A model generated the notes under the pieces. The model was not told the origin of the DNA. It worked only from the letters and a program-made list of their open reading frames with translations, and did no database searches. A stretch of 64,000 nt of DNA from Gemmatimonadaceae bacterium. GTDB lineage: Bacteria > Gemmatimonadota > Gemmatimonadetes > Gemmatimonadales > Gemmatimonadaceae. Below are positions 61,062 to 64,000 of the stretch, one piece after another (the first letter of the stretch is position 1; each line of letters begins with the position of its first letter). Location of the stretch: contig JAICWO010000015.1 of assembly GCA_025934775.1 (NCBI GenBank), positions 62,001 to 126,000 of the forward strand, written 5' to 3'. The translations under genes were made by a program, and so were the position numbers.

Positions 61062-61862
61062 GTGACGCTGCGAATCGAGCGCTACGGAGACGTCGCGCGA
61101 TTGCGCATGAGCAGCATCGGGAGTCGCGCGTTCGGGATGGACGTGAGTGCGTACGTCGTGCGCGGCGTGATGATCGACACGGGCTTTCACCATGCACGCA
61201 GCGAGCTCGACGCCGCGCGTCGCGAGCTGCGCGTCGACGCCGCGATCATCACGCACTGGCACGAGGATCACGCCGGCAACGCGGCGATGCTCGCATGGCA
61301 CGGCGTGCCAATGCTCGTGCGTCCCGACACCGAGATCACGCTGCGCGAACGTCCGCGCATTCGACTCTATCGGCGACTCCTGTGGGGACATCCGCCGGCG
61401 CTCGACGCGGCGCTTCTGCATTTCGAGAGCGACACGCTCGAGGTGATCCACACGCCGGGGCACTCGCCGGATCATCAAGTCGTATTCGACCGCGAGACGG
61501 GGACACTCTTCTCCGGCGATCTGTGGCTCGGTGTGCGGTCGCACGTGCTGCATGCGACGGAGAATCCATACCAGATCGCGCAGAGTCTCGCGCGCGCGGC
61601 GGCGCTGTCGCCCGCGCGCATGTTCGACGCGCATCGCGGACTCGTCGCGCGTCCGGTCGAGGCGCTCACCGCGCGGCGCGCGTGGCTGCTCGAGACACTC
61701 GCCGACGTCGCGCGGCGGATCGCCGAGGGTTGGGACGACGCGGAGATCGTGAAGCGGGTGCTGGGCGGCGAGGAACGCGCCGCGCTGGTGTCGCGCGGTG
61801 ACTACTCGCGGCGGAATTTCGTGCGGGCGGTGAGGAGAGGGGACGTGGGACGTGGAGCGTAG
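61062..61862 (+). CDS. metallo-beta-lactamase fold hydrolase
   Basis: A 266-residue MBL-fold protein. The metal motif ITHWHEDHAGN (about 63-73), HTPGHSPDHQVVFD with the next His, GTLFSGDLW with the bridging Asp and FDAHRG with the last His are all present, so a binuclear hydrolase is expected; substrate unknown. The C-terminal residues after VRRGD are encoded by the 7-bp repeat array that starts at 61841, and the stop TAG lies within a variant repeat unit, so the original terminus has probably been replaced. Confidence 0.9.
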   Translation: MTLRIERYGDVARLRMSSIGSRAFGMDVSAYVVRGVMIDTGFHHARSELDAARRELRVDAAIITHWHEDHAGNAAMLAWHGVPMLVRPDTEITLRERPRIRLYRRLLWGHPPALDAALLHFESDTLEVIHTPGHSPDHQVVFDRETGTLFSGDLWLGVRSHVLHATENPYQIAQSLARAAALSPARMFDAHRGLVARPVEALTARRAWLLETLADVARRIAEGWDDAEIVKRVLGGEERAALVSRGDYSRRNFVRAVRRGDVGRGA

Positions 61863-61935
61863 ACGGTGGACCGTGGGACGTGGGACGTGGGACGTGGGAC
61901 GTGGACCGTGGACCGTGGGACGTGGACCGTGGGAC
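61841..61935 (+). repeat. array of 7-bp repeats, left arm (13 units)
   Basis: Thirteen contiguous heptamers: mainly GGACGTG (seven) and GACCGTG (four), with GAGCGTA and GACGGTG as single variants, then a broken GGACC. The first three units are inside the MBL-fold gene. The unit GACCGTG recurs, in opposite orientation, in the right arm at 62421-62475. There are no spacers, so it is not a CRISPR array. Confidence 0.92.
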
Positions 61936-61950
61936 CTCGGGAACGGCTGA

Positions 61951-62346
61951 CTACGGCCCAGCCTTACGCGCCAGGCTCGCTTGAAAGCGGTTCAGCTTTC
62001 GTCCGAGTCGGTCCAACAACTCGAGCGTCGGCCGCAGTTCCGTGAGCCCGACGTAACCCAGGCGAAAGCTGATTTCGAGTTGCGTCTCGAGCTCGACGAG
62101 CGAGCCGCGAGCGTGAGCGACGATGCGGAGTTGATCAGCAGCCGTGCGCCGCTCGTTCCCCTCCGCGATGTTCGACGGAATCGACGTCGCCGCGCTTCGC
62201 AGCTGCGCTGTCAGCCCATAACGCTCGTCGCGAGGAAATGATCGAGTCACGGAATAAATCAACTCGACCGCCTCCATCCCCAGCCGCCATACCTCCAAGG
62301 TCCGGTACCCACGCGGCCATCGAAACAGCTCGTCTAACTCCGCCAT
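61951..62346 (-). CDS. four-helix-bundle protein (S23/23S rRNA intervening-sequence family)
   Basis: A 131-residue protein of the four-helix-bundle family first known from intervening sequences in 23S rRNA. Signatures are YRTLEVWRLGMEAVELIYSV, FPRDERYGLTAQLRSAATSI and PSNIAEGNERR, followed by LVELETQLEISFRLGYV. The family is related in fold to the Avd accessory protein of diversity-generating retroelements. No rRNA, reverse transcriptase or variable gene is near. The gene sits between two arrays of 7-bp repeats in inverted orientation, 16 and 74 bases away, which looks like a compact inserted unit. Function of the stand-alone forms is not established. Confidence 0.93.
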   Translation of the reverse strand: MAELDELFRWPRGYRTLEVWRLGMEAVELIYSVTRSFPRDERYGLTAQLRSAATSIPSNIAEGNERRTAADQLRIVAHARGSLVELETQLEISFRLGYVGLTELRPTLELLDRLGRKLNRFQASLARKAGP

Positions 62347-62420
62347 GGGACAATGATCGCATCGCTCGGCCGTTGCTTCGGTATCAGCGGACTCGCCACC
62401 GAATCATTCCCACGCCACCC

Positions 62421-62475
62421 CACGGTCCACGGTCCACGATCCACGATCCACGGTCCACGATCCACGATCCACGGA
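62421..62475 (-). repeat. array of 7-bp repeats, right arm (about 8 units)
   Basis: Read on the minus strand, heptamers GACCGTG and GATCGTG alternate (three and four copies) with one degenerate end unit. The array begins directly after the TAG stop of the DHS-like gene and ends 74 bases before the four-helix-bundle ATG. It is in inverted orientation to the left arm and shares the GACCGTG unit, so the arms could pair over most of their length. Confidence 0.92.
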
Positions 62476-63666
<1,191 letters not shown>

Positions 63667-63704
63667 GGTGCGGAAATGTAAGATGGAGGGTTGGCGGATG
63701 CGCC

Positions 63705-64000
63705 CTACACTTCCTCCCCCACCTGCGACCGCCACGCCTCGATCACGGCGTGCGCCGCTTCACGCGGATCATCGGTCAGCAGGATCAGATCCAGATCGCC
63801 CGCCGAGATCTTCCCCTCGGTCAATACCCGCGACTGAATCCAGCGGATCAGGCCGGCCCAGTAGTGCCGCCCGAACATGATCACCGGGAACTGGTAGATC
63901 TTGCCGGTCTGGATCAGCGTCAGCGCCTCGAACGCTTCGTCGAGCGTGCCGAAGCCGCCCGGGAAGATGATGAACGCATTTGAGTATTTGATGAACATCG
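63705..64000 (-). CDS. LOG family protein, C-terminal part (5' end beyond window)
   Basis: The visible 98 residues are the C-terminal half of a Rossmann-like LOG protein (TIGR00730 type). The phosphate-binding motif [20 protein letters not shown] is followed by [14 protein letters not shown] proteins are cytokinin-riboside phosphoribohydrolases or similar nucleotide hydrolases, once annotated as lysine decarboxylases. Because the frame is open to the window edge, the ATG at 63998 is probably internal. Confidence 0.88.

Follow-up and report, generated by a model that had tools for sequence, protein, structure and literature searches.

The S23 open reading frame (ORF) has been described in a stem-loop inside 23S rRNA, where it is suspected of being a selfish element, and a Xanthomonas relative of the S23 protein forms a homopentamer (PMC4990558). 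G-rich heptameric repeats are known from Xanthomonas (GGGAATC) and Nostoc (GGGGA[C/T]T), with 186 heptamer arrays in Xanthomonas and 70 convergent inverted pairs in Xcc (PMC4692102). REPIN-RAYT systems consist of a usually single-copy gene with a flanking repeat, whose gene-less inverted pairs are extragenic and tied to the presence of the gene (PMC3116915). Here we describe a 64,000-nucleotide stretch of DNA from a Gemmatimonadaceae bacterium (hereafter, the window) in which a single S23 gene is enclosed by two inverted arrays of 7-bp repeats. No paper linking S23 to heptamer arrays was found in the open literature, subscription journals and bioRxiv being outside the scope of that search.

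The locus has points in common with each of these systems and differs from each. It shares with the 23S rRNA intervening sequences of Coxiella, Leptospira and Brucella the protein family and the placement of an S23 ORF in an inverted-repeat loop; however, the units studied here are outside rRNA, at intergenic and operon-internal sites, and they have locus-specific G-rich heptamer arms and dispersed gene-less copies. As in REPIN-RAYT systems, the flanking repeat also occurs as inverted pairs without the gene, scattered through extragenic space, but the S23 protein is not a Y1/HUH transposase and the repeats are tandem heptamer arrays, in contrast to the short palindromes with a GTAG-type tag of REPINs. 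The Xanthomonas and Nostoc repeats are likewise intergenic 7-bp tandem arrays with convergent inverted pairs, and GGGAATC is also the arm unit of an S23 locus in Luteimonas salinisoli (L161). Their description (PMC4692102), however, covers repeats only, with no S23 or four-helix term in a word search. Avd of diversity-generating retroelements and bAvd are distantly related four-helix bundles (S23 scored 20 bits with PF22296 and 29 bits with NF033474, whose Avd equivalog cut-off is 80; both are below cut-off), but their gene context is different and no reverse transcriptase is required by the units described here.

The S23 unit of the window and its empty sites

The sequence-only reading of the window had proposed that inverted heptamer arrays enclose one S23-type gene, and this was borne out, with coordinates off by a few bases at most. 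The gene matched PF05635 at 109.9 bits (8.8e-32; cut-off 33.8) and TIGR02436 at about 102.3 bits (1.6e-29; cut-off 24), and its protein matched the crystal structure 2GSC (XCC0516) with E=1.6e-27. Profile searches returned only S23/Avd-type family matches for the protein and no known transposase domain. Tandem Repeats Finder (TRF) identified a period-7 array on either side of the gene, of 13.7 copies on the left (score 99-112) and of 7.7 copies on the right (62420-62473, score 87-103), and these were the two top-scoring tandem arrays of the window, the next best scoring 68. The units are GTGGGAC/GTGGACC on the plus strand in the left arm and GTGGATC/GTGGACC on the minus strand in the right arm, and the S23 gene alone, with no second gene, lies between them. 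The inverted-repeat alignment of the two arms scored 75, compared to a median of 23 and a 99th percentile of 35 for unrelated pairs. The arm-gene-arm segment folded so that the gene occupied the loop (z=-7.8 as DNA and -10.6 as RNA relative to dinucleotide shuffles), in agreement with the earlier suggestion of a long stem.

Comparison with congeneric genomes showed that the unit of about 635 bp came or went as a whole. In two of these genomes (G002 and G004) the two genes that neighbor the unit in the window were found in the same order, separated by gaps of about 27 and 10 bp that contained no S23 gene and no array, and in a third (G003) a gap of about 240 bp at this junction contained neither. 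Since these junctions lack both gene and arms, the two were gained, or lost, together. Such empty sites in close relatives were among the checks that the sequence-only reading had suggested and, together with the armed homologues described below, they support its claim that protein gene and repeat arms form one unit. In a further congeneric genome (G001), an 8-bp tandem array, (GGCGACTC)n, was observed right after the stop codon of the deoxyhypusine-synthase (DHS)-like gene (L369), with no S23 gene in reach.

A second set of sites came from the family of Luteimonas, in which S23 is mainly found between accB and accC or between carA and carB. In most S23-less genomes of this family, accB and accC are separated by a clean gap of about 10 bp. 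In this position G149 and G204 carry inverted heptamers that form a hairpin without a gene, and in G161 (L336/L415) the accB-accC site has arms around an S23 remnant with an internal deletion, which resembles a miniature, gene-dead derivative. The S23 orthologues at the accB-accC site are under purifying selection (median dN/dS 0.17). The units L264, L278-L305 and L316-L335, at accB/accC or carA/carB, lie inside expected operons.

Inverted arms at other S23 loci

The window's genome has seven S23 genes. A strict search of this genome for GTGGACC-type arrays located them at about 15 further positions, none of which was at one of the six other S23 genes. This result looks refuting, but it is not, because six of the seven loci have arms of their own sequence. 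Alignment of the left flank of every S23 gene with the reverse complement of the right one revealed inverted arms above background at six of the seven loci, each of a different sequence, with scores of 75, 42, 62, 118, 62 and 394, compared to 20-30 for cross-pairs. These differences in arm sequence also ruled out a single dispersed GTGGACC family that happens to stand beside an unrelated gene. The sole S23 gene at background arm score (L006, G000:C12:39205-39519) adjoins the apparent start of an ATP synthase alpha gene. In L007 (G000:C7:38651-41956), S23 lies between very long inverted arms, with 233 bp aligned at the score of 394, and these are built from 17-, 25- and 34-bp tandem units, not heptamers.

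Inverted arms proved to be general when the flanks of homologues were compared, as the sequence-only reading had expected. Among 87 stand-alone S23 loci of Gemmatimonadota, drawn from the window's genome and relatives of the same genus, family and order, the arm score was at least 34 in 90% and at least 50 in 69%, whereas the corresponding values were 2.3% and 0.4% for mismatched left and right flank pairs, and 5.4% and 0.8% for shifted positions in the same loci. From other phyla (Proteobacteria, Bacteroidota, Acidobacteriota, Planctomycetota, Nitrospirota, Patescibacteria, Clostridia, Cyanobacteria and others) 80 loci were fetched, and of the 76 with usable flanks 54% had an arm score of at least 34, versus 1.4% of 913 controls. 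An S23 gene between arms of a locus-specific repeat is thus an arrangement found in many bacterial phyla. No rRNA match was obtained at any of the 80 loci, and the window copy sits between two protein genes and not inside a 23S rRNA gene; an rRNA intervening sequence was therefore ruled out.

The arms share two further properties. Period 7 was found in 19-20% of S23 flanks versus 0.9-1.0% of controls, the only other common lag being 14, and the 5' arm, in the sense of the gene, was G-rich in 131 of the 136 S23 loci with a score of at least 40. Chance repeats were ruled out by the TRF scores, the flank controls and the excess of period 7. Mismatches between arms showed no excess of G.U-compatible transitions (219 versus 201 incompatible, p=0.41) and hence no sign of the arms being kept as an RNA stem, so that selection for such a stem was rejected as well. 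Structured RNAs were also observed near some S23 genes, namely SAH riboswitches about 1.6 kb upstream in two betaproteobacterial metagenome-assembled genomes (L174 1369-1445, L175 1398-1486) and two Acido-Lenti-1 sRNAs (L207 3983-4028 and 4556-4601).

Dispersed arrays carry the units of S23 arms

To a census of 1.12 Mb, which is 23% of the window's genome, period 7 contributed 17 arrays, compared to 0-4 for other periods, the harmonic 14 excepted. The dispersed units were GGACCGT, GGATCGT and relatives, corresponding to the unit of the window S23, and GGAGAGT or CGAGAGT, corresponding to that of a second S23 locus of this genome (L002). Thirteen of the 17 arrays carried exactly an S23-arm unit of their own genome (chance 1.1% each) and 16 matched one within a single mismatch. 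Because arrays within a family depend on one another, it is fairer to count distinct units, four of eight of which matched an own S23-arm unit exactly (p=1e-6). An inverted partner was present on the expected side in eight of the 17 arrays and on the wrong side in none.

The link between gene and scattered repeat was then followed in 149 genomes around G059 in the family of Luteimonas, 64 with S23, mostly in one copy, and 85 without. Genomes were called array-rich at 10 or more matches of doubled GGGAATC or GGGACYC, counting overlapping pattern matches and not arrays. By this measure 38 of the 64 genomes with S23 were array-rich versus seven of the 85 without it (Fisher p=1e-11, not corrected for phylogeny). 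The unit itself also followed the arms: all eight genomes with GGGACYC-armed S23 were rich in GGGACYC (median 119), while GGGAATC-armed genomes had a median of 44 GGGAATC matches and 0 GGGACYC matches. The L. salinisoli genome, whose S23 protein is 74% identical to XCC0516, has 119 dispersed GGGAATC matches. Gene-less copies included hairpins that share the G-rich-5' polarity, as well as some single arms. Together, these data showed that the presence of S23 and the unit of its arms predict which heptamer is scattered in the genome.

The sequence-only reading had held that the same arrays being common without the gene would speak against a single unit. Arrays away from the gene are indeed common; however, they carry the units of the genome's own S23 loci and track the presence of S23, and so they extend the idea of one unit and do not refute it.

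Known mobility enzymes did not account for this pattern. Y1_Tnp genes were found in 50 of the 64 genomes with S23 versus 52 of the 85 without (p=0.03), and RVT_1 matches showed no association with S23 (14 of 64 versus 18 of 85), being missing in 50 of the 64 genomes with S23. Y1_Tnp and RVT_1 matches were both absent from array-rich genomes such as G084 (290 array matches) and G159 (186). The two enzymes, reverse transcriptase and Y1 transposase, are not needed.

Features and neighbors of the unit

The unit of the window is flanked by metallo-beta-lactamase-fold and homospermidine/deoxyhypusine-synthase-like genes in convergent order, and its right arm starts immediately past the stop codon of the latter gene.

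Table 1. Positions of the arms, the S23 gene and the adjoining genes in the window.
Feature	Position	Strand	Basis or remark
Left arm, ~13.7 heptamers GGACGTG / GACCGTG (canonical GGGACGT, GGACCGT), G-rich on plus strand	61840..61935	+	TRF, inverted-repeat score 75
S23 / IVP four-helix-bundle gene, 131 aa	61951..62346	-	PF05635, TIGR02436, 2GSC
Spacer from right arm to S23 start codon (upstream region of the gene)	62347..62416	-	Sequence
Right arm, ~8 heptamers GACCGTG / GATCGTG, G-rich on minus strand	62417..62474	-	TRF
Whole arm-gene-arm unit, ~635 bp	61841..62475	no strand	Missing entire at the same junction in two congeneric genomes
Left neighbor, metallo-beta-lactamase-fold gene; final codons and stop inside left array	61062..61862	+	
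Right neighbor, homospermidine/deoxyhypusine-synthase-like gene (PRK00770), same direction as S23 gene	62476..63735	-	

Discussion

The explanation that we favor, and consider probable, is that the window locus belongs to a widespread selfish unit of S23 plus heptamer repeat, which would be REPIN/RAYT-like with a partner protein that is not a known nuclease. The likeness to REPIN-RAYT rests on the gene usually being single, on the gene-less inverted pairs of its flanking repeat being scattered, and on presence and unit being linked. Whether S23 acts in trans on its own heptamer hairpins, such that gene-containing and gene-less units spread and persist, we regard as evenly balanced. In such a mechanism S23, a pentameric four-helix bundle with no known catalytic site, would probably bind the G-rich strand or hairpin of its cognate repeat as single-stranded DNA at forks or breaks. 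Host enzymes would carry out the DNA chemistry by copying or joining the S23-bound repeat, and units with and without the gene would thereby spread and be kept. The fixed polarity of the arms would follow if both 3' ends of a break gained G-rich heptamers and were then joined, although we offer this as a speculation with little probability of being correct.

Several observations weigh against the selfish-unit explanation. Movement of the unit has not been observed, and no target-site duplication was seen at the empty and filled junctions, whose relatives are too diverged for certainty. The co-occurrence statistic for S23 and arrays ignores phylogeny, and seven of the 85 S23-less genomes are array-rich all the same. 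Some S23 loci (L004, L005 and L007) have long arms built of something other than plain heptamers, and arms are missing at about one in ten, such as L006. Finally, the similarity of S23 proteins hardly predicts that of their arms in Gemmatimonadota (rho 0.08). Co-evolution of protein and arms across this phylum was consequently rejected, and no fine code of one protein to one unit is claimed.

The main rival explanation is that heptamer hairpins arise in some other way and that S23, with no role in the arrays, merely prefers their loops as sites of insertion. In its favor, the accB-accC gap, which is occupied by S23 in other genomes, has gene-less hairpins in G149 and G204, and the weak correlation of protein and arms and the S23-less genomes with at least 10 array matches fit this explanation also. 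Nevertheless, we think it rather unlikely, as the two closest empty relatives at the window site are without arrays too, most S23-less genomes have none even though S23 is usually single copy, and the dispersed unit is that of the S23 arms. Lower still is the probability that we assign to an RNA element akin to an intervening sequence, in which the arms would pair in the transcript and RNase III would trim the insert, protecting the host operon. The same gene occurs in a stem-loop within rRNA intervening sequences (PMC4990558), the RNA fold is strong, and insertions between accB and accC or carA and carB are expected to be co-transcribed. However, the arms lack the excess of G.U-compatible changes, none of the loci sampled from other phyla is in rRNA, and the dispersed gene-less arrays and the fixed G-rich polarity are left unexplained.

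The remaining candidates are less credible again. A Y1 (RAYT-type) transposase encoded elsewhere in the genome could move the arrays as REP-like hairpins, with S23 as a passenger. This would agree with Y1_Tnp being common in the family of Luteimonas, with a slight excess in the genomes that have S23, but it is very improbable, being weakened by the array-rich genomes that lack Y1_Tnp, on which grounds RAYT-driven arrays were rejected. At the bottom of our ranking are two explanations for which we see next to no likelihood. S23 could be an Avd-like cofactor of a reverse transcriptase that copies hairpin RNA into DNA, as its weak similarity to Avd/bAvd might suggest, but for an RVT_1 enzyme of the same genome this is contradicted by the lack of association, and the cofactor role was ruled out on that basis. 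Alternatively, the arrays could be ordinary regulatory or terminator hairpins with a coincidental gene neighborhood, consistent with their intergenic position close to gene ends (PMC4692102); against this, the complementarity spans the gene and is locus-specific, the flank controls contradict it, and both period 7 and the match to the cognate unit would be without explanation.

Returning to the selfish S23-plus-repeat unit, we regard it as new in kind, because defining features of each known kind proved absent when tested; its parts are themselves known, and its mechanism is putative. More tentatively, and at somewhat less than even probability, S23 proteins may be repeat-maintenance proteins of a new class, lacking any known nuclease fold, each creating and spreading its own G-rich heptamer hairpins. 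If this is true, it would explain the over-represented heptameric repeats of bacteria such as Xanthomonas and Nostoc, and rRNA intervening sequences would merely be S23 units that landed in rRNA, which suggests a reason for the occurrence of S23 ORFs there. What the S23/IVP family does and where the heptameric intergenic repeats of bacteria come from thereby merge into one testable system. This would be a gene-plus-dispersed-repeat system comparable to REPIN-RAYT, with a protein without a known nuclease fold and a new way of spreading DNA, and it predicts, from sequence alone, the heptamer that a given S23 protein should recognize.
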